Positions 1 to 34,269 of a stretch of DNA of 64,000 nt are shown here, in pieces. Position numbers and translations under genes: made by a program. Below the pieces are notes generated by a model that made no database searches, was not told the origin of the DNA, and saw only the letters and a program-made list of their open reading frames with translations. Numbering within the stretch: the first letter of the stretch is position 1; the number at the start of each line of letters is the position of its first letter. The DNA comes from Gonapodya sp. JEL0774 (taxonomy: Eukaryota > Monoblepharomycota > Monoblepharidomycetes > Monoblepharidales > Gonapodyaceae), in the NCBI GenBank assembly GCA_027604505.1, contig JADIIX010000089.1, positions 1 through 64,000 of the forward strand. The letters are read 5' to 3'.

Positions 1-237
1 CCTTCACCACACCCAGATTGACATACAAGCCTTTTCCCAACACTCCTTAGATTCCTGAGAACATCCAAACTTGACATTGTCTCCTAGCAAGGTGGGGCAT
101 TCTGGATCTCTTCCACCATAAACATTAATTGCACCTGAGCAACCAAGTCCAAGTTCCTGTAGAAACTGAGTAATCCTTTTAAGGATAAAGAGAGAATCCA
201 GCACTCTGCCCCTGTACAGGTTTTGCCACCATAGCTC

Positions 238-254
238 AACAGGTTATGAGCCTG
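238..254 (+). other. Second copy of a half-tRNA-iMet primer-binding-like motif
   Basis: The 17 bases here match exactly the LTR end plus primer site seen in the opposite orientation at 2179-2195. They read ACA followed by GGTTATGAGCCTGG, the complement of an initiator tRNA-Met anticodon stem-loop. It may mark the inner edge of another copia-type LTR whose outer part lies to the left of the window. It sits in sequence otherwise resembling hAT debris, so chance or nested insertion are both possible. Confidence 0.35.
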
Positions 255-556
255 GCGTCCCAATGCGTCTAGGAGCATTTTGAGAAGCTGAAGAGAAGGA
301 GATTGTGGATCTGGGCGAAATTGGACATTGGCTCTTTCACTATTGAGTTCACACTACATCCCCATAGTCAAACATATCTGACACCATCCGTATCACATCT
401 GACGGCTTTAAAAAGGCTGTGGGCGTTCTTGACTATGCCGTGAAGTTCCGAAAGTGGAAGAAACGGGAGGAAGTGGCATTTCTGGCGTTGGAGGTGATGC
501 GAATTGTGGATGGGACAGAAACCTGCCCAACCAAAACCAGCAACAAGAAAACGCTC

Positions 557-1450
557 TCAGAGCAAAAGGACCATCTCATTCATGCTGTTCAATATTCCGA
601 AATGTTTCAATGACTTCACAAACTCATCTCCAAGATTGACCTCAGTATGGCAGCCCTCATTGACAATAAAATTGAGGAGAGTGCGTTGTAACTTGAACTG
701 GCGGTCGACAAAGTGAACTGTAGTGGCCTTGAACCTGTACTTCATGCCTGGACTGGTCCATTTGTCAGTTGTACAAGCACACGGTGATACCTCATTCTGA
801 AAAAGAAGATAGACTGACAGAGAGACTCTCAAGTGGTTTTGTTGTACTCACCTGGAAGTAATCTTTTCTGATTGGAACACATTGATCAAACTCCTTCTCC
901 AGGTCCAACCAAATTTTCAAATCCGAGATCCCACAGACATCAGGGTTTGGTACTCTCAGGAGTCTCTGGAAAAATTCTCCTTCAACATCGGTGAAAGGAT
1001 GGCCTCGAGTCACTATCCAGTCGACAAGCGCAGCTCAGAGGTTGCCCTCATGAAAAGCCTGCATGAACGTAAGAGAAATATTATTTTCAGTGACAATAGT
1101 CAGAATGCAGACTTACAAATTGCTTTCTTTTCAACATGTCATCCAGAGTGAGCTGACAGCAACCATGCCATACATTTCCAAGTGCTTTCGCACAGTACTT
1201 TGGTCACGGGATTAAATGACTGTGATATTGAAGAACGTGCTCAATGAGATGTGTTGAAGCGCTATTTTTGGTGATGTTGTATGGGCTCATGATCAAGATG
1301 ATCGTATGGAGACTGTGAATTCAGTGGTTGGCAAACAAGAAAGTACAACAAAAGCGAACCGGACCTGTGATTCCAATCACGCAAACAAACGGCTCTACGC
1401 TCCCGTTCCTTGAATTGCATCTGGAAGTGACCTTCGGTGTACACAAACAA
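557..1450 (-). pseudogene. hAT-family transposase relic
   Basis: On the minus strand, 792-1013 reads as a peptide with GHPFTDVEGEFFQ followed by an NP..GI.DLK segment, and 557-832 reads ACTTDKWTSPGMKY...HFVDRQFKLQRTLL.F...GCHTEVNLGDEF. This order (QPFTVVE-like block, then TTDxWTS, then HF(I/V)D, then H(T/S)GENL) is that of hAT (hobo/Ac/Tam3) transposases. The two pieces are in different frames, with stops and splice-like breaks between them. I could not find the catalytic C-terminal dimerisation block in 1-556, or a convincing BED zinc finger upstream, although 1321-1776 is open on the same strand. I therefore call it a degenerate copy. Terminal inverted repeats were not found. Confidence 0.6.
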
Positions 1451-2844: not shown

Positions 2845-4010
2845 TCATCCAGAGGATATTTTTGCAATAGAGCCAATGATCTGGTGAAACACTTTACAAA
2901 TTACCACCACAGATTTACACTCACTTGAGAGACAAACTGAGCATACATAACCAACCTCCACCATTCTTTGATGACAGAAACATGCTGCTCGGAAGTCTAT
3001 GTCACTTTGTTTTGGGGGATTAATGAGTTCCCGAAGGCTGTTTCCAGCAAGGTAAACGGACTTTGTTGTAAATAACATGATAACATCCATTCAATCATCT
3101 GGGACTTAAGGTAGCATATCTCAATACTGTGGACTCACCATCATGGAAGAATGCAACATCATGTCACCATGGGCAAGCAAGTAATATCCACTTGTGAGGT
3201 GTGAGGCTTGTTGAAGGAAAATAGAATCCACATGAACCCTGCAGACATCCATGGGAATTTGCTACAAGAACAGAATCAGCAAACAACCCATTCTAAAGCT
3301 AAACCCAGAATGAACTCAACCAATTTCTGAGCTGTGAAAATGCAGTTCATCACTTGGATATATTGAGATGACAAATCGTCAGATACAGACAGCAAAAGGA
3401 TTCTTGGCTGCAACTCGTGCCTGGCTTTCATCTTTTGAGCAAAGCAAAGGCACAGGGATAGTGCACCAGCAACGTGAGATTTGTCATGAGCATTCCTCCC
3501 TGTCAGCAGGGAGATGGTAAACATTACAGGTTCTCAGAAGGAGATACTAATTCATTATTAACCAGTCCCATCGTCCTCCTGCAACATCCCACGTTCCATA
3601 ATTTCGTTCAGTCGAAGCATCAGAGCGTTCTTCACGGAGGAAAACTTGTGATATGCGTGGGGAGACTTCGATTGCGACGTCGGGGCAGGGTAGAGGAATT
3701 CGCTGCCACGGCGGGTGTAACAGTAGAGTCCACCGACGTGCCAAAAACAAGACACACGAAAGGCGAGCTACCTTCCGTTTCCGTGGGATGCGACTACCGC
3801 TACTTGGTTCTCGTTCTTTCCAGCAAGAAACGCATTCACGAAAGCGAAGAGAGAATCCAAAATCGTTCCGAAACGAAAGCCCGAAGGTAAGGCTGCCCAA
3901 GAACGAGCATTGCAGTCAATGACAAGCAGTAGAAGCTCGCTGATCCGGGTTGTGAGCTCAATACCATAAGCCTTCCCGAACCGAATACGATAGTGCCCTC
4001 ACGAGTTCAT
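2845..4010 (-). CDS. TFB4: TFIIH subunit Tfb4 (p34/GTF2H3)
   Basis: Tfb4/p34 is a core TFIIH subunit used in RNA polymerase II initiation and nucleotide excision repair; it has a vWA-like fold and a C-terminal zinc domain. Exons show LLLLVIDCNARSWAAL and NQVAVVASH near the N-terminus, then RILLLSVSDDLSSQYIQVMN, CIFTAQKL, the QIPMDVC...FLQQASHLTSGYY block, and the zinc region DFRAACFCHQRMVEVGYVCS. The start at 4008-4010 is inferred: ATGAACTC joins across a 63-nt intron to CGAGCTTCTAC. After the first CxC..CxxC cysteines, the last exon reads into SECKSVVVICKVFHQI and stops at 2845, so the second half of the zinc domain looks altered. It is divergent from ARPC3. Decayed copia sequence follows only about 150 bp downstream. 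Confidence 0.88.
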
Positions 4011-4195
4011 TCGAGGTGAGAAGCAGACAACTGCTTCGATTCGTCCCTAAAAGAGAAGACCTGGAACCCCCGCAAATAGAGTTTGATGAAAAGTCTGGAA
4101 AGGCCTGTGAAGTCACATTTGAAATGGCACGCCACCAGAAGGTCGGCTTGCCCACTCCCAACTGGAAAAACACAGATTCATCCCTCCAAACAACC
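4011..4195. promoter_or_regulatory. Shared divergent promoter, TFB4/ARPC3
   Basis: These 185 bp separate the inferred start codons of two divergent genes, so both promoters and 5' UTRs must fit here or overlap the coding regions. No clear TATA box was seen. The call rests on gene positions only. Confidence 0.45.
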
Positions 4196-5021
4196 ATGCC
4201 CGCTTACCATTCGTCATTTCAGGACACGGAGTACCGTTCTATCGGAAATCTCGCATTACTACCAATCAAAACAAAAAGTCGTGGACCGGCTCCGACTCAA
4301 GGTTGAAACACGTCCCAGTTGTTCAACCATGATATGTATTCTGCTCACTGTGGATTCTCTGATGGATACAGGAGACCCGAATGCTGATGATATAATTGAT
4401 GAAGCGCTTAATCTGTTTCGTGCAAACTGTCTGTTCAGGGTGAGTTCAGGTTTGCCCTCCAAGTCTACATGGCTTGTTTCTCAAAGGTGGCGTCGCTCCA
4501 GAACTTCGAAGTCAAAGGTTCTGGCGACCGCGTTTTGATATATCTTACGTACGAGCTCCGCTTTTTTTGGGGGGGAGATGTGATGGGTACTTGCTCAAAG
4601 CACCGCCAACATCAGAATCTTCATTGGCGAATGTCTCACAAAGCTCGCAACCAAAACACCGACTCCCAGTCTTCAAGAAGCTCTGAAGATCTTGAACGCT
4701 CATGCACTGCAATCTTTTTCTCTTCCAGGCGACCCGAGCTTTCCAGTTAATGCCTTCATGGCGAGGCCGTCGAACTCAACGGAAGCAGGTTTGTCTTGTC
4801 ATAGTTCGTCCAACACTGTCATCTAAATTATAATGCATTTGTCCGCGGGGATTATCACAGACAACATGAGAGCATATCTGGCTCAACTACGACAGGAAAT
4901 GGCTCTCCGCCTACCTCAACGGATCTACGAAGGTGACAAACCGAGCAAGTGGTGGCTAGCGTTCAGTAAACGCAAATTTATGAATATCACCAAGGTAATT
5001 GTACACTCGGATGTTATATAA
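4196..5021 (+). CDS. ARPC3: Arp2/3 complex subunit 3 (p21-Arc)
   Basis: This is a structural subunit of the Arp2/3 complex, which nucleates branched actin filaments in the cytoplasm. The protein begins [23 protein letters not shown], the hallmark N-terminus of ARPC3 (MPAYHS...IGNMALLPI). Later exons give [69 protein letters not shown] and [18 protein letters not shown]. Every conserved block of the roughly 175-residue family is present, over about five exons. The end is the first stop after KFMNITK; a donor-like GTAATT at that point leaves a small chance of a further exon. It is convergent with delta-COP, with 71 bp between stops. Confidence 0.93.
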
Positions 5022-5092
5022 TATGGTTGGAGGAGGTCAGAAAATTGATTGATTTGGTTGCGAATACACTCTATTCACACAGCCATTGTAAT

Positions 5093-7343
5093 CTACTGAA
5101 TAACGTACTCCAAGGGTTCAAAGCTAATATCTTTGCTGTATGGAACATCTGATCCATCGTCGACATTGGAGACGGATGTCACCTGTGTAATTTTAAAGTT
5201 TGATGAGAAGTTTATATGAAAACGGTTCGCACACACAGGAAAAAGGCTATACCTCGACATCGCAGTAGGACCGATTGCAGCCGAAAGAAACTTTAATTGG
5301 GAAGAAAGAGTTGACGTCCTCCCCTGGGACGCTGAACTCCATACTTCCTGTCTTGGAGCTGGCATCAACAATGGGAATCTGCGTTTGAGCCGAACCAGAA
5401 ATAACACTGGTATCTAACAGCTTCAGGCGAACCTAACGTCCTCATGTCTCACCTGCCAATCAATCACTCTTCGAGATTTGTCCACCGAGTATTGTCCATC
5501 TACTTCACCAATTGTTGGAACACCCCCAGAGCTGTACAGGAGACAAATGCCATTGAGCTTCGATTTGCTTTGTGACACTGAAAGGATCCGACTAAAGTTC
5601 TCACGGATATGGTATTGAAATGGATACGTCTCGAAGTTCCAGTCGGGAGTTCATGAGTTCATATTCTATGCTGACCTCGGATGTACCATCGCCGGTGGGG
5701 CTCGGCCAACAGTTGACTTGCAGAAACGGACGTTGCGTGTGTAAACCTTGATAATCAGGATCTAGTTTGCAAAGCGGTATGACATACCTGAGAGCGGAAG
5801 AGCGTCTTCGCTCTTGGAGGAAAAGCGGTATCGAAGAATACCGAGAGCCTGGTTAATGGGGAAAGGCTTGGATGGATCTTTCAGCGCGAGAACGTTGCTT
5901 GATGAGAAAAGGTTCTTGTCGACTTGAGGGTGGGTCTGCGCACAGTTCGCCCACACAATATGGGGTGTTACATGCATTGTATGAAATGGCGAAAGGAGAC
6001 AATTGAGGCAAAGTTTGGCTTGGTTACGTGGCTGAACCCAAAAGCGACCCACGTTAAATTTAACATCTTCGACTCCGCTTCGCATCTGCAGACGCAATCG
6101 GGACCTCGCCGGATCCGAGACCCGCAAGGTGACGTCGCCCTTGACTTCGAGAGAATCCAGTTTATCCCGTTTCATGATGGCAGAGATCTTCTCGTCGATA
6201 ACAATGTGAACACTGTTTGCACGGCCGGCATAACAGTGGATGGCACCAGTGAGATTGGATGAAATGAACCTAAAAACCATTATCTCACCTCTCCTGGGAG
6301 ACGGTCGAAGATGCGGCAGCACGGTTTGCACGTGCTGGTGCCTCTGATGGAACTTCCTGAAGACCCTCTTCTGCCCTGAGTGTCTCAAGCAACTGAGAGG
6401 CTTGTGGTTTCCGTCCCAGTTGCATTCCCTTTGAGGGAGGTCTCGGTCTATGCGAAATAGAGATGACATACCACCCAACGTGGTCGTTGCGTTGAGATTA
6501 ATTGAGGGAACCCTCTCAGCATCAAGACCACCAAAACACCCACTGTTGGTAAGAAGGCATAGAAGATGAGGAAAGCACCTGCGGAGGCTCGGAGGTTGTT
6601 CTGCCAGATGACGATCCTCCCCCGAACCCTGAACCGAAAGAGCCCATGCCCATGCTCCCCATCCCGCCCATATTCCCCATGCCCCCCATACCCCCGCTCA
6701 TTCCACTCTTCCCGGATTGTTTTCGTTGGATTTCCATGGCGCGGACCTTCCTATTCAGCTCCTCCTTGGCTTCCTTCTCCTTGTTCCTCTGAATCTCAGC
6801 CGCAATCTTCTCCTCGTGGCTCTCCATCTCACTTATGGTGCGAATCTGTGCGAGTGTTACATTTTCTCGGTATCCAAGAGATACAATCTCGTCGAAGACC
6901 GATAGAAGTTCGTACGCTTTGCTGACAATCTCCTTCTCCTCGATAGTGCGGCACGTTTCAGAGAGGGTTCGTGCAAGAAGATGGAGAGTGTCAATATCCT
7001 GCAGAATATTACTGGATTTGTTGGTGACAAGGATGCAAAAAAGCTCTTCCAGGGGCTGGTAGACATATCGAACCGAGTCCGTCTCCACAAATGTGTGCTG
7101 GTCACCAGTGCCGATGAGCTTTGGGAAGGAGGCAAGCAGACCCTCGATTCGAGAGCGAGGCATCTCGACAAACTGTCGAGAAACAAGCGCTATAGATGAT
7201 AGTGATTAAATTGGAGCAGTTGAAGCAGGTCACGGCAAAATAAGGCGGTTGGCATTGGTGAATGAGCCCATGAAACAGGCCAGTGAGAAAGGAAACGCAC
7301 CCTTCCCATTCTTTGTAATAACGCTGGCAGCCAGCACAACCAT
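5093..7343 (-). CDS. RET2: Coatomer subunit delta (delta-COP, archain)
   Basis: Delta-COP is part of the COPI F-subcomplex that coats Golgi-to-ER vesicles. Exon 1 (7301-7343) encodes MVVLAASVITKNGK. It splices through a GT-AG intron to 7189, giving ALVSRQFVEMPRSRIEGLL, the standard delta-COP start with a longin-like domain. The first large exon also holds YVYQPLEELFCILVTNKSSN and a helical tail with GMGGMGNMGGM-type repeats. The C-terminal mu-homology domain is seen as SVHIVIDEKISAIMKRD, LRLQ.., QTHPQVDKNLFSSSN and PFPINQALGILRYRF, in exons between about 6480 and 5095. The last residues are FEPLEYVIQ. It is divergent from ARP4. Internal exon borders in 5.1-6.5 kb are approximate. Confidence 0.93.
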
Positions 7344-19745: not shown

Positions 19746-20709
19746 ATGAGTATGTGGTCCCGTTGCTGACGATCCGTTTTCTGGTTTCTCTCCGGTCCTA
19801 TTTTTGTGTCTCCCGCTTCTACCTGCGCCGTCTTCCTCTTGACCCCATGAGGCCCTATCTACGCCTCCTTCTTTGGGAGCATGGGAGTGGCCTCGGCTAT
19901 TGTGTTCTCCAGTGAGTGGACTCTACCCTGAAATTGACGTATCTACCGTTTGCGCCAGCTCTCCGGTCGCTCATCGCCATGGAACAACCCTTTCACCTTT
20001 GTTAAAGGCTTCGGTGCCGCGTACGGCACCGCGAAGTCTGGTGTCGGTATCTCGGCCATGGGGGTCATGAGGCCTGAACTCATCATGAAGTCCATTGTCC
20101 CTGTCGTCATGGTGAGATACCCAGCTTTTTATTTGTCATTGCTTAGCATTATTTTGCTGCGATTTCGGGCATCGAATTGGGCTTTAAGAGGTCGATTACT
20201 GAAACTTGATAAATTCCCACTAGGCGGGTATCATTGCTATCTACGGCCTGGTCGTTGGTGTACTTGTATCTGGTGGCCTTGATATCAAACAGACTCTTTT
20301 CTCGTACGTAGAGTCTCTTGTTACAGTTTTGTTATTGTATTGGGTTGTTTGGGTGAGACTTTGACGGAATTGCATTGCACTTCGTCTTTGCGCTTGGAAC
20401 CTGCTAGGGGTATGATCCAACTTGGGGCTGGTCTTTCGGTCGGTCTCGCTGGTCTGGCCGCCGGATTCGCCATCGGTATTGTCGGTGACGCCGGTGTGCG
20501 CGGAACTGCACAGCAGCCCCGTCTCTTTGTGGGCATGATTCTCATTCTCATTTTCGCAGAAGTGCTGGGGTGGGTATCCGATTTCCATGAGCCTTGTATC
20601 CGTTCCTCACGGTTTTGTGACCAATTGCGCCCCTCCCAGTCTGTACGGTCTCATCGTCGCTCTGATTCTTAACACGAAGGCAACAGGTGACCAAGCCAAA
20701 TGTGCTTAA
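19746..20709 (+). CDS. VMA3: V-type H+-ATPase proteolipid subunit c
   Basis: Subunit c forms the rotating membrane ring of the vacuolar H+-ATPase. Exons read [125 protein letters not shown] and [16 protein letters not shown]. This covers all four transmembrane helices, including the proton-binding Glu in IFAEVLG. The stop at 20707-20709 follows [10 protein letters not shown]. The frame is closed just upstream of PIYAS, so a tiny first exon is needed. ATG at 19746 followed by GTATGT (giving M-S-P-I-Y) or a slightly longer version (M-S-M-C-P-I-Y) both fit the splice signals. Confidence 0.92.
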
Positions 20710-20966
20710 TCTACAAGTTGGAGATGATTCCGTGTGATTTGTAGCCAGTCAACGTATGGTCAGTCGAATTCGGGAATTGTATCATTGAAGGTTGCAGGCA
20801 AATGTGTGTAGGGGTAAACTTGCGTGAGGTTTTTAATCATGGCTTGATGGTTTAATAGAAACCTGGATACTTCTGTTTGTGTTTTTCGTGTTGTTTTTAC
20901 TGACAGAGGAGGATAAGTAATGGGGGTCGGTGAAACATGACAGTGCTGCAAGTCTGCACTCCCATC

Positions 20967-23553
20967 ATGACAGAGGACCAGCCCCCATGGCGGACTCAGG
21001 TACCATTACCTTACAGTGAAGAAGCTATCGATTGCATCGAATTCCTGACTCCTCAATTCCTTCCGGCCACAAATCCCTGCGCTTTTGTGCATTCTTATCT
21101 GATCGACATGGAATCCACCACGATTCACCATTTCCATTCTTGCAATTCCACGATTGAATTCTACTCCAGTACCATACTATTGCTGCCACAAGCTTCAAAA
21201 GTCCAACATTCCTCACCACCGACAAATGTGCAAGTGGGTATTCGAAGCGTTGGAAGTCGTTCACGGACAAGGTGCTCCAAGGCACATATCATGGTTTTTT
21301 GTCGGAATAAGGTATGCTCGAAAAAACCCTCGAGATGCACACGGACTCGGATTACTCGTGGGCCATCGTGAGCAAACCTGAAGGTACGGCGAATATGGCG
21401 AATGTTACACTCGAATACTGCACCACACCCTATCCTCGTTCTCATTCACCCCAACGCACTCGCCTTCCGTTCTCGCCTCGTACGGGGAATTAGCCTCCCA
21501 CCTCTTTTTCTTCCACGTGCCAGACGCCGCCACGAACGAGCCACTCCCACCGGACGGGTACGGATGGTTGGATGACGAGGTGCTGCGGGAACGGAAGACG
21601 TTGCCGGGGGCCAGAGTAGGTATCGCATGACCGTTTAAGGAATGTCATTGCTTTTGCGATTGTGGTGGTGCGATGATGAGAGCCTTGATCCTAACCATCG
21701 GGTTCCCGTTTTTCGAACCCGTCTAGGAAATCGAAGTGTACGAACGGTTGCAAGGATTTGATACGGGAGAAACAATGGCATCTGTTTCTCGACGGAGGTA
21801 CAGGTTGTTTGGTGGGAAAAAGCCAGAGATGTGTGCGATGCATTATGTCAAGCACGAAGGTGAGCTCCGTGGTGGCCGCACGCTCGCTCGCTAGAGGACG
21901 AACCTTTACAACATGTAACCCACACACACACACACACATTTAACGACTCACCCGTCGCTCCATGTCTCGTCACCACAACTACCTTCGCCACCCATCAAGG
22001 CCCCCTCGTCCCTGTCACCCCTGCACAAATCAAAGTCCATCCCTCGGCACGCCTGAACCCGTACCGGTACCCTGCTCAAGCGACAGCACCAGCCCCGCCC
22101 GGTGTGAACCCCGTCGTTCGACACAAGGTGGCTGCGAAAGCCGCTGCGGTACAGGCAACAGCGGCGGCGGTGGCGGCGGTCGTGGGAGGACATGCGGGAC
22201 AGCAGGGTCAAAGAGCGGGAATGAAGGTGGGCAAGGCGGGACGATGGGCGGAGTCTGTTGTGCAGTGGGAGAGAGAGACTTGGGGCACGGTCTTCTTGTT
22301 CCAATTTATATTTTCTTTCTTTTCTGTTCGAATGTACTCGCCAGCGCCCACACCCTGATGATGGTCATGAGACTACTGGTGGTGTGTAGAAACGGTGGTG
22401 GTACTTTGTCTGACGCGATGTGGTGGTGCTCATCGCCTCGACCTCACACACCACACGTCACACCGTTTCACCTCATACCCTTCGTCCCTTCGGGCACCGA
22501 CATTTTCTCATCATTCAAACTCATTCTCACCGCTTCATCGCGAATTACACCACCGCACCGCGCCTCCGGGTCACCCTTTCGACCTTTCGACACAGACGAT
22601 ATGGACCAACTGACCCTCCGCGACGTGGCGCTGGAACGGTACATGCGGAACCACGAATCCATGGCGGAGATTCTGTCGCCGTTTCAAGCGAGTGAGTTTG
22701 AAGGAGGGGGGGGGGGCGCTGGCAGGGGAGCCGATTGATTTGTCGGACATCACCGCGCGGCGCCCGTGTTGTGCCGTGCCGTTGCTTCTCTGATTTGATT
22801 CGACTTTTAGCCCAAATCACCCCACCCGACGCTGTACCTAAGTATTTGGATCAAGAAGCGAGGACCAGAATACGGGAGGAGATAGTGGGTAGTACACCGC
22901 CGCTATATTTCTCCCCCCCCCCCCCGTTTGCCCTGTCCGCACTCAGTGTGTGGTGAAGTTCTCTCCAGAGGCACTCCGTTCCTTATCATTTCCCGTTCCC
23001 CGACCCACGCATGCACGCCCCCATGTTCCATGTTTCCGTTCGTTGCTCTCAGGCCCGTATACGTGACGACATCTCGGCAATGGCTGAGTCGCATAAAGCG
23101 GCTACGACGGGGTTTCAAGAGAGGGCCGCCAAGGTGTGGCAGGCGTATGAGAAGGTGGAACAGGTGGAGAATAAGGAGGTGGGTTGTGGGGTGCTGTGAG
23201 GGGGTGTGGGTCTGTGAGACGGGTGCAACTTGGGCGTCCAGGTGTGACACTGCGCAACGTCAGTTGGCAAACTGCCGGGTTGTCCCTCTACCCAACATCC
23301 CTTATGCAGTGCTAGTGTGGTGCGTCCTCAAGCGTGCATGTCCCCATGTTCAAACCTTCGCACATCTCACTTCACATTTCCCCACCCACTGACTCGTCCT
23401 TTGTTGCTCGTTCTCCGCGGGGGGGGGGGGGGNNNNNNNNNNCCTGGACGCGCCATTCAGGCCCTGACCGCGCTGATCCAAGACTACGAGGTGGAGCACG
23501 GTGTCACGATAGAGAGCAGTGCGTACAGGAAAGTGCACACTGTGGTGTCGTAG
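20967..23553 (+). CDS. SSR4: Ssr4-like SWI/SNF and RSC complex subunit
   Basis: Ssr4 is a fungal subunit shared by the SWI/SNF and RSC chromatin remodellers. The N-terminal domain is seen as ATNEPLPPDGYGWLDDE, EIEVYERLQGFDTGETMAS and VSRRRYRLFGGKKPEM..MHYVKHE, then a Pro/Ala-rich linker, then LTLRDVALERYMRNHESMAE and ILSPF..QITPPDAVPKYLD. The C-terminus is coiled coil: IRDDISAMAESHKAATTGF, QERAAKVWQAYEKVEQVENK, then RAIQALTALIQDYEVEHGV. The start MTEDQPPWRTQ at 20967 and exons before 21420 are uncertain; several frames look partly coding there. A 10-base assembly gap (23433-23442) falls at the start of the last exon. The family call comes from memory of the Ssr4 domain and should be confirmed by a profile search. 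Confidence 0.62.
23419..23442. other. Assembly gap after a G14 run
   Basis: Fourteen Gs (23419-23432) are followed by ten Ns (23433-23442). The N count is a placeholder, so the true length is unknown. The coding frame of SSR4 is open up to the gap edge on the right, so the gap likely hides the splice acceptor or some coding sequence. Confidence 0.95.
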
Positions 23554-23613
23554 CAGAACAGCAGGAAGGGTGCCCTGTCATGTGTCGTAGCAGAACAGCG
23601 GGAAGGTACCCTG
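23545..23613 (+). repeat. Direct repeat x2 across the SSR4 stop codon
   Basis: GTCGTAGCAGAACAGC followed by AGGAAGG or GGGAAGG and a CCCTGT tail occurs twice in a row, about 34 bp per unit. The first copy contains the TAG stop of SSR4. Confidence 0.7.
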
Positions 23614-23761
23614 TAATCAAAGTTGAGGATAAGAGTGTGGCGGCGAAGTAACACAGAGACACAGAACATTGCGAGACAGATCATGGTCACTGTTTCATTT
23701 GATGTGTATACAGAATACAGCTCAAGACATTGTTACTTTACTTGAATACCATCTGCGCATC

Positions 23762-26700
23762 TCAGTGTGCAGGTGGGACCCTCCTAGAAATTTCCGCTGC
23801 AAATTCAACTTCATCCATATCAAAGCCTTCAAACTCTTGAAGGCTCCTTACTTTCTTCCTGAAACGTCTCTCCATCCTGAAGAGTAATACAGCATCAGCT
23901 CAAATAAGCACAAAGAAGAAAAAGAAATGTTGAGATCACAAAACCCACACACGGCAGGAGACAAAGTATATCTGTTGATCAGGATATCCAAGCTTCTCAA
24001 ACTTGGGAGCCAAAAATGATTCAACCTCTTTTCGAAGGGTGTTCTTTGCATCCAGAAGATTTCTTTTATAAATTGAATCATCATCATCCTCATGCTCCAT
24101 CCTATTGATCTTTGCCTTCAGACTGATATCTGTCTTGCAGTGAACAAAAATGACAGGAATTTCAAAAGGAAATGCTGCAATTGTTTCGAGCATGCGCATT
24201 TCCCCTTCTGAAAACCTGCAGTGGGAATGCGCTCTTGAATTTTGTTTCAAAGCCCACTGAAGAAACCCAATCGTACCTGTTTCCTGTTACAATAACAACA
24301 GAATCAAATGCAAAGAGTCTTTTGTCTTTCAAATATGTCAGAGAAGGATGTGCAACTGTGTCACACCCTGGGAGATCAAATAAATTAATGTCTGGTGGCA
24401 AATCATACTTCCTAGTTATAATGGAACTCAGTCAGAGAGTCTAGAGCAAAGGGATATAGGATTTTTTCCTTACCGAATTGTATTTGTTGTCTCAATTTCA
24501 CCAGTAGGGGCAGCCCCATCTTCCATATCACGCACTTGCCGTAACCTGGCACAAACTTAGTAAAAACTTGATGGCAATAGTAGAGATTCATAACTCACAT
24601 ATTGATAATTGTGCTCTTGCCTGTTCCTGCCTTTCCACTTATTGCAACATTCTTCTTGTCACTGTCTACTCCCAACTCATATTTTGCCACATTGATAGCT
24701 TTCTCAAACCACTTCTCAGCCTCAGAAAGATCTTTGTCTACCCCACATTCTCCATTATAAAAAAATGTCCCAAGTGCAAACTGTGCATCCAAGTTCCCAA
24801 ATTCTCCATTAGTTGCAGCTTTGTTGTACCAAAGGATAGCAGATTTGAAGTCCTTCACAAGCACACCCAGTCCATGCTGATAATAAAATGCTAGCCTTTC
24901 CTGAGCCTTGGAATTGCTCAACTCTGCAGCTCTCAAGAGTAGTTGGGAGGCTTCCTTCAAGTCCTGGGAATCTTCTGCAAGTTTGCAAAGATAAGATGGA
25001 TCAGATTCATTAATCTGAAGCTTTGGATATTCTGGAGTTTTTGGTTCTGAGCTGTAACTCCCAGCAAATGTTCAACCTTGAACTTTGTTTAAGGGTGGAA
25101 AATACTCACACATGTTCAAAGATTCTCTGCTTAATGGTGGAGAATGTTGGCCTATGTTGGGGAGCATCCAATAAACACTCATTCATAAGTGTTTGAAGCC
25201 ACAGTGGCATGTTTGAGCCTTGTGGGAGGGAGGGTCGCATTCCATCAAAAATGATGTGCTGAAATACTGTTGGTGTGAGTCCCTTATATGGTTCCTCCTG
25301 TGTCCACATCTTGAAAATGATAAAAAATTGTGAGCTATGAAGTATGGGCACACAATCCCTTGTTACATGACTTACTGCATATATTGATATGCCAAAAGCA
25401 TAGACATCATCCTCCATACTTGGGCCTTCACCTGCTAGACGTTCTGGCGACATAAAAGAAGCTGTACCAGGTGTACTGGCAGTATTTAGATCTGAAATCT
25501 CCCCACTTGTTGTAGCAGGAGCCACAGATTCCAATGGAGCAACTCTTTCTGTCTGTGAATATTGAACAGAATGACTGCAGAGTATGAAGAGCTTACGGAA
25601 TATTAAAGAATCTCACCCCCAGGTTTACTGGCAAATGCGCTGTGACATTTCTCATTGTTGACTTTGCAAATCCAAAGTCAGTTATAACACCTCTTCCATT
25701 TTGAGACACCAGAAGCTGTTGAGGCTTCACATCACAATGTACCACACCCTGGCCATGCAGATACTCAAGAGCCTCTGCAAAATCACGCAACTGTGATTGT
25801 AAAATGGGGGTATCCATTCATGATCAGTGCTAGCAAGAAAGTGATGAATGAGCACTTACAAGAATGAGTGTTGGAGCTGCTCTCTGAGGCCCTGCTGGAA
25901 ATGTCTTCAGGTATTTTTGTGCATCTCCATTCTCCATAATGGGTGAAATGAATGTCCAAACAAGACCATCACGTATGACACCATAAAGTGGCAGAACCCT
26001 GGGAGATGTAACATTGAACCAAATTGCAGCCTCATTATTGAACTCCTAGCAGAGAGCAACACATCAGAAATTCTGTTAGATAATGACGACTGATTGACCT
26101 ACTTTCTTACTGTAACCCTCCCTCTGGAAATCAATTGTTTTAACGGCAACTGGAACCTTTTTAAGCCAAAGTCCCCGCCACACGGTCCCATATCCACCAG
26201 TACCAAGGATTTGATCCCGCTTGCAAAAGACATCCCTCTCGTCGACCTCCCAAATTGCAGGAAGGCTGAGTTGACGCAGCTTGAAAGGTCTGGACCCTGT
26301 GCGGCCCCGCATTTCGTTCTTCTTCACAACTTTCGGCGGGGCCAAGGTAACAACTTTTTGGACGTTCAAATCTACAAGCCGCGCGTCGGTTTCCCAGGCG
26401 TTGGGGAAAGGTCGTCCGGTTTCCCATTCGTTGGGGACAGTACTTGCAGGCACATGGACAGACTCCGCAGGTCCACCATTGTCCGTGTCAACTGCGGCAT
26501 TTGCAACGGGGAGTGAGAGATCTGTGAACGCTGTCTCGAGAACCACATGGTTGGTCGCCTCAACTGGTTCCTCGTCGGCACGCCTGTTGCCAGATTCCAT
26601 CGCCTCGACGGAGATGGTTTTCATACGGCGCGGTGGTTGGAGCCCCATTTGCGACGGGAGTGATTTGGTTCGTGGGTGGATGAGGGGGGGTCCTGAATCC

Positions 26701-27047
26701 TCCAATATGCCATAATGTCCTGGGTGGAGTCCTGTCATGTTCGTGGGCAAGCCATATCGTGGGGGACTTGTCTTCTTGATCGCAGATAAATAATCGTAAA
26801 ATTCCATACTGTCTCTTGGGATTGCTCGCAGGGGCCGCCGCTGCGAGAAACCACCTAACCATGGTGGTGGGAACGAGTCTTCCGGAAACCGAGATTGGTC
26901 CACCGCCGCTGGTGGTAGTGGTAAGGGCCACGCTCTCAGTGGTGGTGGCCCCGAGTCTTCGTCCACAGCCGCCCGAGCCGCGCCTTCCACACCGATTTCT
27001 CCGCGATCCGGGTCGAATGCATCCGATTCTTTCTCGCGCGACTCCAT
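23762..27047 (-). CDS. Protein kinase-Sel1 repeat-IRG-like GTPase fusion
   Basis: Three domains follow in one exon series. (1) About 270 residues of disordered Pro/Ser-rich lead. (2) A TKL-like kinase: Gly loop GTGGYGTVWRG, lysine in VAVKTI, catalytic loop VVHCDVKPQQLL (HCD for HRD, about 25733-25752), ITDFGFAKS (25662-25680), FMSPERL, DVYAFGISIYA, and C-lobe NECLLDAPQHRPTF. (3) Sel1 repeats: SKAQERLAFYYQHGLGVLVK and DAQFALGTFFYNGECGVDKD..EAEKWFEKA. (4) A GTPase: P-loop AISGKAGTGKSTIINM (about 24600-24645), TGEIETTNT, DLPGC (about 24360-24385), IPVIFVHCKTD and QQIYFVSC, the G1/G3/G4/G5 order of immunity-related GTPases. It ends ISRRVPPAH. About ten exons; no transposon break seen. Joining is inferred from continuous splice-compatible exons. 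Function unknown; the layout suggests a signalling or defence switch. Confidence 0.8.
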
Positions 27048-27216
27048 GCGGGGGCGGGTTTCTTGAATCTGGTGGGTTGGGTTGTTTGGGATGCTGTGTC
27101 GAATGGGGGGTGCTCAGCCCTTGCACCCTTTCTGCTGACATGGAATCAGCAAGGGAGCTGGGTAAATGAATCACACAATAATGCAATCTTTGGATAACAC
27201 GTACTTTTATGTCCTT

Positions 27217-27975
27217 CTATCGAGCAAACGCTCTAAACTTGATCTTATAGTCGTGCGACCCTTCCACACGGCGCCTTTTCAGTTTTGTCATTCCTTTTTC
27301 CGACCCCCGCCAAACCCCGCTCGCGCACCATGTCCCGCCCCTACGCAGAACCATCCACGTGATGTATTTTGCAGGTTGAAGCATACTTTGTTTGGGTGTA
27401 CGCCATGTCGCCGGGCACAGGGGAACGCTGGACGGGGGAGGCAAGAGATGGCTGGACGGGGGAGGCAAGAGATGGCCGGTGAAAGCAACACCGTCCGCGC
27501 AAGGGAGGACCAATTCGTCGCGTAACCCCTTCCCGACACGAGTCCCGGACCACGCCAGTTGAAACACGGGGTTCCCGAACGCGACGAGGTCGTAGGTGTC
27601 GACGCACCCAGCCGAGCCCACGCCACGAGCCACACCAAAAAATAAGTACGGCTCGCCCCCATGCATGACACTCCACAATGGGGTCTGCTTCATCGTTCCC
27701 GTGACTCTGTATGCAGTTTTCACGTGTTGGCGTGCCCCCATCACTTCCCACGCTCGCGTTTGCGCTTCCGAGCCCAACACCGCCTCCTCGTCCCCCGCAC
27801 ATCGCGATGCTCCTGCCGATCTCGCCGCATGGTCATGCCTACCACACGAAGGATGGATGTACGGCATCGGGGTGAGCACCGTGGTGCGCCGCGCGGGTGC
27901 ACAACGATCGGGCCTGGTCCCTGGGGGCGTGGTGCCCGGACACAGTGGAGGGTACTCGGGACTGGCACGTGCCAT
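27217..27975 (-). CDS. Possible coding region, unrecognised
   Basis: A 252-codon open frame with a stretch that looks globular (HVKTAYRVTGTMKQTPLWSV, EPYLFFGVARGVGSAGCVDT, YDLVAFGNPVFQLAWSGT) followed by a repeated LLPPPSSHLLPPPSS. I do not recognise a family. High GC makes chance open frames likely, and the flanking frames are also open. It could instead be an exon of a larger gene or non-coding. Low confidence. Confidence 0.2.
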   Translation of the reverse strand: MARASPEYPPLCPGTTPPGTRPDRCAPARRTTVLTPMPYIHPSCGRHDHAARSAGASRCAGDEEAVLGSEAQTRAWEVMGARQHVKTAYRVTGTMKQTPLWSVMHGGEPYLFFGVARGVGSAGCVDTYDLVAFGNPVFQLAWSGTRVGKGLRDELVLPCADGVAFTGHLLPPPSSHLLPPPSSVPLCPATWRTPKQSMLQPAKYITWMVLRRGGTWCASGVWRGSEKGMTKLKRRRVEGSHDYKIKFRAFAR

Positions 27976-29530: not shown

Positions 29531-32500
29531 ATGGAGTCGACCGAATGGGGAGAATCCAGGGACTCTGCAGATGCAGTGGATGCAGTGGATGCATTGGATG
29601 CACAGCCCTCTGCGCCACTCCCCCCTCCACCCTCCAGGGGCGTCTTTGCCGTCCCCGCAATTCCCATCAGACGTCTGCCGCCTGCCAACCCTCCCGACCC
29701 TCCCGACCCTGCCAACCCTCCCACTCCCACTCCCACTCCTCCCTCCTCCTCCGCCCCCACGCCCGCCCCCACTCCCTCCCCATCTCCTGCTCCAACTCCG
29801 GCCCCGCCTCCCCTCAACTACGAAAAACCTCACTGGAGCGGCCTCCCCAGAGATGTATGGTCATTGGAGGTCATCAAGCAAGGGTGAGTCGAATGGACAG
29901 GGCAGGGGGGAACACGGTCCCTCCACAAAGGGACGGGATTGGCAGGGGATGGTGATGGGGGGCTCAACACGGTCCCACGACAAGGGACAGAAGTCTCTCT
30001 CTCACCTCTCACCTCTCCTCCCTTCTCCCCCGCCCTCTCTCCCCCACCCTGCCCCTGCACCCCGCACCACGCACTCGCCCCCGCACCCCAAAAAGTCTCT
30101 CCCTCTCCACCCTCGAACTCCCCTCCAACAAGGAATATCTCGTCGTCGGTCGACTGCCCTCGTGTGATGTTGAAATGGTCAGTAGATTATAAAGTGGATT
30201 TTGAGTAGGTCGTTGGTGTCCTTGTTTGCTCGTTTCCTCCGTACGGCCTTGTTCACCATACCGTCCCCCCCCACCCCTCACCAGGAACACCCCGTAAGTA
30301 CTCTCCACAAGGGAGATTGGGTGGCGGTGGATGGATGGATTGGATGGATTGGATGGATGGCATGTATGGCACGTATGGCGTGGCCGAGAACCGAGACCCT
30401 TGCGGTGCGGCGGGTCACAGGCACGGGGTGGACGGTGGAGGGGTGGTTGCTGGTCGTGGGGTGACGGTGATGGTGGTGGTCCACCGGAAACGACGGGACC
30501 ACCGGGGACGCGGGGTCGTGGTGCGTTGTGCGTTGTGCGTTGTGCGTGGTGCGTGGTGACGGAAACACACACGCACGGTACACGATCACGGCGGGTCACG
30601 GTCACCACCACCACAGACAGACAGACGTACGAAGGAGATGAGTCGGAACCAACCACGCGACGCAACTCTCACACCCCCACCCATTTTACCGTTCCCGTTC
30701 CCCGTTCCCCGTTCCCCGTTCCTCGTTCCCCCTTCTCCTCCCCCCACCACCGGCAAAATAAAAATTCCCCCACAACCGCCCCCAAGTCCGTCTCCCGCCT
30801 GCACTGCGTCCTCCAGTTCCACGGTACCGACGGGTCACTCCACGTGTACGATTTGGGAACCGCGCATGGGACGAGGGTGAACAAGGTGGGTTGGTGGGTT
30901 GAAGGCGAGGCTTGCGGGGGGGAGAGGGGGGAGGGGCAAAGGGGGAATGGGGATGGGGTAAGGATGGGTAGGTGGGTCGGGAGATGGGGAGGGGCAAAGG
31001 TGGAATGGACACGGGAGGCGGGAGGAGGGAGGAGGGAGGCGGGCGCGCGGTCTGTTGTTGGGTGCCGTGTGCCGTGCGCCGTGTGCCGTGTACCGTGTGC
31101 TGTGTGGGGAATCCCCCGGGCGGGCCCAGGTGCTTTGCGATGTGGATCCGAGTGTCTGATGGTGGCTCTACGCGGCACACCAGCACACGCGTGCGGTGTG
31201 TGGTGTGGCCCCTGTTCTCTTCCCGCTACCCCGTCCCCGTCGTGGCCGCCACCGTGTCGTCCCCGCCGTGGAGCCCATGGCGTCCCGGCCCTTCCTTGCG
31301 ACTCGCCCAACACTCGGACCGGAGTCGCGGCGGGGCGGGGTGTGATGAGGGTTTGCAAGGGGACCGGACTGCACTGGACTGCACGAGACGGGACGGGACT
31401 GGATCTGGATCTGGAACTGGAACTGGAATGGTTCTCGAGAGGTGATGGTTGGAGGTGGGAGGTGGGTGCGGGGGCTCCTCCCGATACCAACACACCACCT
31501 CGCACCCAGCAACCCCGCAACCCCGCAAACCCCCCCTCTCCCGACACGACGGAAACGATCCGACGTCGCGTTTCTTTCCGTGTTTTTGGTTTTTGTAGTG
31601 TGCTCAGTTGGGGCCGATTGTGTTTTGTTCTTTCCATGTTTGGACTCGGTTCACTCACTCTCCCCATACCCACACCCTCAACACTCCTGCCCCCCCAAGA
31701 CCACCCTGCCCCCCCACACCCACCACCGCCTCCACCCGGGCGACCACCTCCGCCTCGGCGCCTCGACCCGCACCCTCGTCGTCTCTGGCGGCCCGCCTCC
31801 AGAACGCTCACGGGGGGCCACGGGGGACGGAGACGACGAGGATGGCGAGGATGGCGAGGACGCGACTGTGCGGGGGGCCCCGCGCGCGGCAGTACCGGTG
31901 GCCACGCCGACACAGGCGGAAGACTTGCACACCGTGACGTGGGGGTTCGGGGAGGACGCGCAGGACGAGGACGGCGGGGTGGAGGCGGATGGAGGGGTGG
32001 ATGAGGTGGTGGAGGTGGATGAGGGGATGGTGGGTTGGGTTGGAGGGAATTGGGGGGGTAGTTGAGGGTGTTGCGGATATTTGCTGGTGGGCATGGTTGG
32101 TGTGGAAAGGTGGCGCCCGGTCCTACCTTGGTTGGATTTATTTGCGAGTCCCCACTGCCGATCACAACGGTGGATCGCAGTGGGGTAAGGGGAAGGGGAA
32201 GGGGGATATCCGTTGCAACGTGCAACCCAACAAGCCACCCGTTACACCTGCCCGGCCCGACAGTGTCCTCCCTCGCTACCAGCGGTGGCGGGGCTCCGGT
32301 CCCGGGTCCCGGGTCCCGCATCGTGGTGTGGTGTGGTGTGGTGTGTCGTTGTTGACGAGTTGACCGTGGCTCGTGACTTGTGGCTCATCGTTTCGGTCCT
32401 TCCCCTCCTACTATGGGATCTGTACACCTCCCGCACCCAAACCGAACATCCATCTGCACTCGCACGAACTAACCGGTGATTGGCACCACTCTACCGTTAC

Positions 32501-34269
32501 GCCCAACCCTTCGCTGCCAACCTCCCACTCTGACAACCAGTTCTACTTCAAGGACCCAAAGAAGGCGATTCGGCACTGGTTGAGCAATCGGTGAGCAAGA
32601 TGAGGGGCGGGCCGCGGGTCTGATGTGGACGGTGGGGAGTGTGGGATGGGGTGTTCGATGGTGGATCACCCCTGTACGGTGGCGTGTTGCTATTTCGATC
32701 ACCCTTTACGGCCACTGTTGGGCATCCCTCATGTGCTGCCTTTCCTCGAAAATTTCACTGCCCCCCAACTTGACTCGCTCCGCATTTCGCCCCCTCCCCA
32801 CCACTGCATCCAACTACAGCGGCTACGACCTCGACTACACCTTCTCCGAAACCGGCAGCGGCCAGTCCCACCTTTACATCGCCACGCTCGACCTTCCCAT
32901 CTCCGACCCAACCTCTGGCGCTCCCATCTCGGGTACGGGCCAAGCGCGTCGAAAACGTGACGCCGAGGTGGAGTGTGCCCTGGACGCGTGCAAGAAGCTG
33001 GACAGGAGGGGTCTGTTGGTGGCTAGTGTGGGCGGGGAAACGGCGGCTGCCAAGGAGCGGGCCGTGAGGAAGAAGAGGGAGGGGGACGACGGGGACGACG
33101 AGTATTTCGACAGGACGGGCGCGGTGGGGAGGAAGAAGGAGAAGGAGAAGGAGAAGGAGAAGAGGGTGGGTGCTGGGGGGGCGGGGGCAGGGGCGGGGAA
33201 AGGGAAAGACGGCAAGGACAAGGTGGAGACATACGAGAGTTTGTCCGCCAAGAAGGCGGAGTTGGTACGCAAGATCGCGGAGGCGAACGCGATGGTAGAG
33301 GCGCTACAGAAGGAGCATGATATAAAGGAAGAGGGCAAGGTCAAGGCAGTGGTGGGGACATTTGAACGTGGGGGGAGTGCGGAGGCGTCCGAAGGGCCAG
33401 GGCACGGTGTGGAGGACGACATGGACGTGGAAGGCGTTCTCAAATCGCTCGAAAAAAAAACAGCTTATGAGAAGGTGGTCAAGGCAAAGCGGGAGGCTGC
33501 GGCGTTGGCGAAGGTGAGTTTGGGCCGTCGCGAATGTGGGGCGGTAGTAGTGGTTGTGAGGCGTTCGACGGTGGTATTGACGCCGATCTGTGATATCCAG
33601 GAACGCGATCGACTCAATCGACTTCTCAAACTCGTCAAGCCCAGTGATATTCTCACGCGCCCTGCCGATCGCTCGGCAACAACGAACCCCCCTTCCGCCA
33701 CTGCTGCCGCTTTTGAGTCACCTGCGAATCCCCCCGTGTGGCCTCCCCCGCAAAATTTGGTCAGCAAAACTTCGACGTCGACTTCAAATAGTGCTGAATC
33801 TGCGCTTCCACCACCGCCTGTGTGGCCTCCGCCTGTGTCGATCTTGGCCAAGAAGCACATCACCGAGGAGGAGGAGTTTATTCCAGAGGAGGAGGAGGAG
33901 GACGACAACAATGAGCATGATAACAGACAGTCGGAGGCGCAGAGCGGACGGAATGAGCGAGAGAGGGAAAGGTCCGTGGACCCAGATGTGCAGGAGCGGA
34001 CAAACAATGACAGCGTGGAGGTTCCCGGAGACCCCCCCACCTCAACGACTCAAAGAGTCCCGCAAAAGCGCGCCGCGGTTGTTTCGCGCCAAAGAGAGCT
34101 GGATGACGATCGTGACATTAAACGGCCAAAACGAACACCAAGGACTTTCGATGCCCGAGACGATGTTGGAGGCGTTGACGACGGTGAAGTTGACGTGGAC
34201 TTTTCTCTGTTAAAGGCCAGTAAGACACAGAAATCGGTCGAAGAGATGAACAGATTGTACGGATACTAG
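29531..34269 (+). CDS. SLC4A1AP: Kanadaptin-like FHA protein (SLC4A1AP)
   Basis: Kanadaptin is a nuclear protein with an FHA domain and a dsRBD-like domain. Here the start MESTEWGES is followed by a Pro-rich lead ending YEKPHWSGLPRDVWSLEVIK (animal PPWSG....LEVLK). The FHA exons give SNKEYLVVGRLPSCDVEM, VSRLHCVLQFHGTDGSLHVY, DLGTAHGTRVNK and HTHHRLHPGDHLRLGAST, the core Gly-Arg and Ser-x-x-His FHA signature. The dsRBD region reads FYFKDPKKAIRHWLSNR, DLDYTFSETGSGQSHLYIAT and RKRDAEVECALDACKKLDRR. Then EYFDRTGAVGRKKEKEKE and [20 protein letters not shown] (animal YYDRTG.IE.KR, ETFESLV.KL). The end is EEMNRLYGY. Introns in 29.9-32.5 kb are GC-rich with simple repeats (GTTCCCC x4-5 near 30680-30722; TGGAT repeats near 30325-30360). 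Confidence 0.88.
30680..30730 (+). repeat. GTTCCCC tandem repeat in a kanadaptin intron
   Basis: About six units of the 7-mer GTTCCCC or close variants run in series, ending GTTCCTCGTTCCCCC. The repeat lies in an intron between FHA-coding exons. Confidence 0.75.

Follow-up and report, generated by a model that had tools for sequence, protein, structure and literature searches.

A Gonapodya gene joining a protein kinase domain, Sel1 repeats and an IRG-type G domain, with a tentative model of GTP-controlled kinase dimerisation

The minus strand of a 64,000-nucleotide stretch of the genome of Gonapodya sp. JEL0774, a water fungus of an early-branching lineage (contig JADIIX010000089.1, positions 1 to 64,000; hereafter the window) carries, from 27047 to 23762, one gene that runs from start to stop codon in 10 exons and encodes a protein of 907 residues in the spliced model. 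All 9 introns are of the GT-AG type, with lengths of 53-72 bases each. Pfam searches with the spliced protein give PK_Tyr_Ser-Thr at 122.5 bits, Pkinase at 121.2, Sel1 at 59 in 2 stretches, and IIGP, the profile of the immunity-related GTPases (IRG), at 77.9 (cut-off 24). An earlier reading of the letters (the original prediction) had named kinase, Sel1 and GTPase motifs following one another on one strand in splice-compatible exons. All of the named motifs occur, in the order given, on the minus strand at 23762-27047, and one spliced frame holds the kinase, the Sel1 repeats and the IRG-type G domain, so that the observation of the three in a single gene is confirmed. The protein is a new combination of known domains.

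Exon 1 (26103-27047; all features of the gene are on the minus strand) holds a proline-rich N-terminus, the kinase glycine loop GTGGYG and the VAVK lysine K303. The N-terminal part, residues 1 to ~262 with 13% proline, is probably disordered. GC content at third codon positions is 0.55 in exon 1 vs 0.20-0.44 in exons 2-10; overall GC also falls sharply within the gene from exon 1 to the remainder (23762-26045). The protein kinase domain (residues 277-556, exons 1-5, 25124-26219) scores near-equally with PF07714 and PF00069, and the best 60 of 2248 PDB matches are tyrosine kinases, which leaves the label TKL-like of the original prediction tentative. Its catalytic residues are present, namely VAVK at 300 (K303), NEAA at 319 (E320), HCD at 395 (D397), DFG at 415 (D415) and an SPE motif, and with these residues intact the kinase is predicted to be competent. 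The catalytic loop, HCDVKP, has HCD and is therefore that of a non-RD kinase. Two Sel1 repeats, which pass the Pfam cut-off for PF08238, lie in exon 6 at 24694-24912 (singly, 24805-24912 and 24694-24789). The same open exon holds the P-loop (G1) of the G domain, GKAGTGKST, at residues 700-708 (24610-24636), and for this reason the link between scaffold and GTPase is independent of the splicing of intron 6.

The G domain spans residue ~690 to near the C-terminal end, and its IIGP match covers residues 688-815 in exons 6-9 (24113-24672). Switch I, APTGEIETT (residues 724-732, 24485-24511), aligns to T102, G103, E106 and T108 of mouse Irga6. It is followed by G3 as DLPGC (residues 748-752, 24363-24377), by VHCKTD in the G4 region (residues 805-810, 24128-24145), with a cysteine where [N/T]KxD is usual, and by a G5-like strand, YFVSC (residues 864-868, 23954-23968), assigned by eye. 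Exon 10 (23762-23876) encodes the C-terminal tail, in a frame set by a choice among three donors. An assembly gap of ten N (23433-23442) is close to the gene's 3' end.

Independent support for exons 1-6 comes from the public gene model HDU93_009632 (Gonapodya sp. JEL0774, Monoblepharomycota), which matches them letter for letter and is identical to residues 1-712; there it ends. The end is a TGA that arises when the donor of intron 6 (24546-24598), GTGAGT preceded by AT, is read through. The G domain is thereby cut between P-loop and switch I, with loss of switch I, G3 and G4. Intron 5 likewise has a GTGAGT donor, with TGA as the second codon if retained, and the public model does splice intron 5. 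Transcripts ending between the Sel1 and GTPase exons had been named in advance as evidence that would count against a single chain, and HDU93_009632 comes close to this, its stop lying just past the P-loop; but as the stop sits inside both the G domain and a GTGAGT donor, we read the public record as an annotation truncation and not as the real protein end.

The remainder of the G domain past the P-loop does depend on the splicing of exons 7-10, whose backing by profile, phase and splice signals is the weak point of the model. Exons 7-9 carry the IRG match forward, with order and phase both correct. Scored singly, exon 8 reaches 28.2 bits and exons 7 and 9 match weakly (4.9 and 4.5 bits), again with the order kept. 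The last intron has three nearby GT donors, and the long C-terminus results from the one at 23949 only. The IRG profile scores 82.9-83.6 bits with the three donor versions and the unspliced form, the preferred version being lowest by a hair, and is unable to choose between donors because its match does not reach the tail. The donor at 23949 was retained for its longest tail (39 residues after YFVSC vs 16 and 9), which by eye resembles the last helix of a G domain.

The assignment of the G domain to IRG is clear. The IIGP profile gives 79.6 bits with the G domain alone, and the next GTPase family, MMR_HSR1, 26.0 (22.5 with the full protein; cut-off 21.9). Also with the G domain alone, Dynamin_N (17.4 bits) and septin (13.0 bits) are both below cut-off and AIG1 gives no match. 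A PDB search with the G domain (best 60 of 83 matches at E up to 10) returned 13 distinct IRG sequences at E 1.2e-17 to 4.7e-13, followed by an AAA ATPase at E 0.016; every match below E 0.01 is an IRG protein. The IRG match is far above chance, and the comparison with the IRG, GIMAP, dynamin and septin families that the original prediction had called for came out as IRG.

When bound to GTP, IRG G domains form pairs, and their hydrolysis of GTP is activated by switch I (PMC3042988; PMC4774019); an earlier antiparallel model of the dimer has been superseded by a parallel one (PMC4774019). Twelve catalytic-interface residues of Irga6 were taken from PMC3042988 and mapped by alignment. Five of the 12 are identical in the fungal G domain (T102, G103, E106, T108 and R159) and two are conservative changes (S132 to T, D164 to E). 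Among the identical residues is the equivalent of E106, the glutamate required for hydrolysis (PMC3042988; PMC4774019), as E730; T102 and T108 correspond to T726 and T732. The fungal protein was also aligned with 11 relatives picked from 32 matches, one from fish and ten bacterial or metagenomic. T732 is invariant in 12/12 rows. T726 is common to the fungal and fish proteins, valine standing in 10/10 bacterial/metagenomic rows. The fungal and fish sequences further share the run GAAPTGEIETT and a five-residue-longer loop before switch I, which has no counterpart in 10/10 bacterial/metagenomic rows. At the position of Ras Q61, where IRG proteins have a large hydrophobic residue, the fungal protein has a cysteine (C752), as have all ten bacterial/metagenomic rows, and the fish row an isoleucine.

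Among the closest known systems is the IRG/p47 group (Irga6, Tgtp2, Irgb10), interferon-induced GTPases that serve animals in cell-autonomous defence, with the same IIGP profile, P-loop, switch I with the T102, G103, E106 and T108 equivalents, and R159 equivalent. The run GAAPTG in the longer pre-switch-I loop is found in mouse Tgtp2 as well as in the fish IRG. Bacterial IRG-type GTPases of ~365 residues (Brumimicrobium, Polaribacter and others) are 26-30% identical to the fungal domain and have GEIETT or GEVETT, DLPGC and RF motifs in common with it, but they stand alone, possess a long C-terminal part and have the shorter loop. To judge from these alignments the fungal G domain looks nearer to the vertebrate IRG type.

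In IRG proteins helical domains flank the G domain (PMC1297648). No IRG helical domain was found in the fungal protein: its alignment lacks such a C-terminal part, and the profile match stops at position 159-160 of 375. The idea that later exons conceal a helical domain was considered and rejected, as the later part of the IRG profile gave no positive score in any of 229 open frames (at least 20 residues, 20000-27600, either strand), a search by which a very divergent helical domain could be missed. No lipid-anchor motif was seen by eye at either protein end. With no helical domain found, with 5 of 12 catalytic-interface residues different, fused behind a kinase and Sel1 repeats and encoded in a fungus, the protein departs from IRG/p47; by its G domain it would be classed as IRG, by the whole protein not. 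The membrane-acting GTPase of the original prediction is not borne out, since no part of an IRG helical domain was detected in the protein or in those frames.

No other protein with this domain order was found in a protein search (best 120 of 578 matches), in line with the statement that no described fungal protein shares it. Likewise, the G-domain part searched against proteins of 499-1587 residues gave 0 matches in 1814 candidates, which is weak evidence of absence. The database is apparently thin in eukaryotes (no mouse IRG is named among the 32 matches, and no other Gonapodya protein is named among the best 120 of 578 despite the many paralogues in the genome), and for this reason the evidence that the order is lacking elsewhere is weak. 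Some basidiomycete proteins bear the automatic name 'interferon-inducible GTPase-domain-containing'. Among the matches listed in a literature search, none concerned a fungal IRG protein or the order kinase-Sel1-IRG. As of 2005 no unambiguous IRG homologues outside vertebrates were recognised (PMC1297648). A separate look for IRG relatives in viral contigs gave 47 pattern matches, 0 of them confirmed.

Within the genome itself (25 Mb, 381 contigs) a protein search for IRG found this locus only; with exons scored one by one, a second, much-interrupted IRG gene could be missed. The Pfam IIGP search of the genome gave no match (4 candidates), owing to the same exon-wise scoring, and a profile search found no AIG1. 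GTPase matches of the MMR_HSR1 type number 17, four places being on contig C98 and others on C175, C85 and C86.

Since the G domain is tied to a kinase without known membrane parts, the most simple role for it is that of a GTP-controlled kinase dimeriser. Our preferred reading, given a probability of roughly 0.42, is that a GTP-dependent dimerisation switch would control the kinase in cis, by analogy with the logic of LRRK2 but built of IRG parts. In the single chain a brief Sel1 stretch would serve as linker or docking scaffold between a non-RD kinase and an IRG-type G domain that has no helical domain. With GTP bound, two G domains would pair through switch I, as in Irga6, and so join their kinases for trans-autophosphorylation, until the dimer hydrolyses its GTP and the signal ends. 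Feedback may come from the kinase, by phosphorylation of T726 and T732 in switch I. The site of action would be the cytosol, where the protein would sense or relay a signal, perhaps one of defence or stress. The splicing of exons 7-10, dimerisation, the direction of control, feedback, location and biological role are all things we infer. LRRK2 and other ROCO proteins combine GTPase and kinase in one chain, and the GTPase is thought to control the dimeric kinase. Theirs is a different GTPase family, and in the fungal protein the kinase comes first and the GTPase last; Roc and COR domains give no Pfam match in it at E up to 1.

Several points weigh against dimeriser control. Five of the 12 Irga6 interface positions differ (E77, K161, K162, N191 and K196); E77, whose mutation abolishes Irga6 oligomerisation (PMC3042988), is a lysine in the fungal protein. 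G4 reads CKTD instead of [N/T]KxD, with its lysine and aspartate kept. Only one gene in one genome carries IRG, as found by the genome search, and the public protein stops at residue 712. The last exon, with the final 39 residues, is uncertain, and the mutual regulation of kinase and G domain is itself something we infer.

The gene is a member of a large kinase-Sel1 family. The kinase-Sel1 part has 135 matching places in the genome, 6 of them in this gene (99/194 candidates scored), and Sel1 repeats number 150, 2 of them this gene's (252 candidates). Among 20 paralogue stretches picked from the match list, two of them overlapping, a pattern for the catalytic loop gave 17 loops, 15/17 of them non-RD (HAD, HCD, HTD, HSD), and no match in 5/20 stretches. 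Twenty open frames from 18 of these stretches (L028 and L043 left out) were searched with Pfam: Sel1 occurs in 12 frames, kinase only in 6, a VIT domain in 1 and nothing in 1. Ten of the 12 Sel1 frames have 4 to 19 repeats passing alone, vs two repeats in the present gene; the frames of L026 and L040 have one. A large expansion of non-RD kinases in this fungus is visible across stretches L026, L028-L029, L032-L035, L037-L039, L041 and L043-L044. Across the genome, HADLK is encoded 35 times (reversed-pattern control 5) and HRDLK with a CGN codon for its arginine 28 times (control 13; AGR-coded HRDLK uncounted), HADLK being at least as common as HRDLK with CGN.

The closest of the 20 stretches is L026 on contig C12, with 235 bits summed over four kinase segments, the next being L030 with 186. 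By the Sel1 segment L030 and L031 are slightly above it (80 and 78 vs 76), and by linked E-values, in which L026 suffers from having its matches divided among frames, other stretches rank higher. Its homology extends to residue 694, the start of the G domain; there a Sel1 part (50.7 bits) gives way to a TPR array (TPR_12, 147.3 bits). At 3200-5949 on the plus strand L026 runs from kinase through Sel1 into an array like that of kinesin light chain (TPR_12, TPR_10). At L044 a VIT domain (84 bits; 89-802, minus strand) lies just downstream of the kinase on the same strand in another frame, a possible kinase-VIT fusion if spliced. Hyaloraphidium curvatum P0038, also from Monoblepharomycota, joins a kinase to another module, and both kinase domains are non-RD with HCD by eye. 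It differs in having a caspase-like Peptidase_C14 instead of a GTPase and no Sel1 listed, and is 27% identical over 35% of the query. Peptidase_C14 gives two adjoining matches on contig C32 in the Gonapodya genome. Glomeromycotina have MLKL-like proteins with Sel1 repeats (PMC8778642), and no GTPase is described in the passages on the kinase and Sel1 families of that group.

This family setting is what favours an immune-type module, in which kinase-Sel1 proteins would form a fungal non-self or damage-sensing family with exchanged C-termini and the present member would have received an IRG effector. The family is large, its C-termini differ between members, and nearly all of the paralogue catalytic loops found are non-RD, a type often seen in plant receptor kinases that detect microbes (PMC3426755). 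The non-RD state is however a correlate and no proof, and Sel1-kinases could serve any signalling. This account, which concerns role and is compatible with either direction of control between G domain and kinase, is rather unlikely in our estimate.

Phosphorylation of the G domain gives a second alternative, close to the model of the original prediction: the kinase would stand upstream, receive a signal and phosphorylate the G domain in cis on T726 and T732, thereby switching the GTPase, as effector, off or on. The Toxoplasma kinase ROP18 phosphorylates T102 and T108 of mouse Irga6 (PMC3393671), and both target threonines are present in the fungal protein. They belong to the catalytic surface, so that their presence is a lead and does not show phosphorylation; T732 is conserved in every aligned row, whereas T726 recurs in the fish row and is replaced by valine in the bacterial/metagenomic ones. 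The effector role at a membrane is unsupported, given that neither helical domain nor lipid anchor was found. We regard the upstream kinase as unlikely. A broader form joins this to the family: an in-cis kinase-IRG pair, in which either the kinase controls the G domain via the threonines that ROP18 hits in Irga6 or the G domain clusters the kinase, as part of a family of non-RD kinase-Sel1 proteins that would serve sensing in the fungus and swap its C-terminal modules (Sel1 arrays, TPR, IRG). If true, this form would mean that fungal signalling includes an IRG switch of the animal type; it is slightly less likely still.

Less probable again is a G domain without switch function that has degenerated to a nucleotide-binding scaffold, acting as a decoy or as structural stand-in for a TPR or Sel1 array. 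The change of E77 to lysine, the CKTD of G4 and the failure to find a helical domain would fit, as would the repeat array that the closest paralogue has at the same place, but against it stand a retained P-loop, DLPG, G4 lysine and aspartate, and a switch I that still has the E106 equivalent. Finally, that the real protein is the annotated 712-residue kinase-Sel1, with exons 7-10 from a separate or dead gene, accounts for the end of HDU93_009632 at codon 712 and is improbable, for the cut lies within the G domain between P-loop and switch I, the stop comes from read-through of a donor of the kind that the public model splices at intron 5, and exons 7-9 extend the IRG profile in order and phase, each matching IRG alone, exons 7 and 9 weakly.

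Ten other long open frames of the window were examined. Seven match eukaryotic families above cut-off, one has a C1_1 match below cut-off and two match nothing; the families are adaptor-complex medium subunit, FHA, Dicer dimerisation domain, importin beta, GDT1, GATA_AreA and Nop/Prp31. As the neighbouring frames match ordinary eukaryotic families, the locus lies in a eukaryotic genome and is no stray bacterial piece. The frame with the Dicer dimerisation domain (32584-34269, plus strand) lies in a GC-rich stretch, next to the FHA-domain frame at 30298-32004.

The shortened public record is an example of a fusion concealed by automatic annotation: the GTPase was lost when a splice donor was apparently taken as a stop. 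For the IRG family, a vertebrate-like G domain in a fungus bears on the age of the IRG switch, and in so minimal a form, with no helical domain, it would make it possible to study what such a domain can do alone. Its physical link to a kinase would offer a simple, testable system for the mutual control of G domain and kinase.
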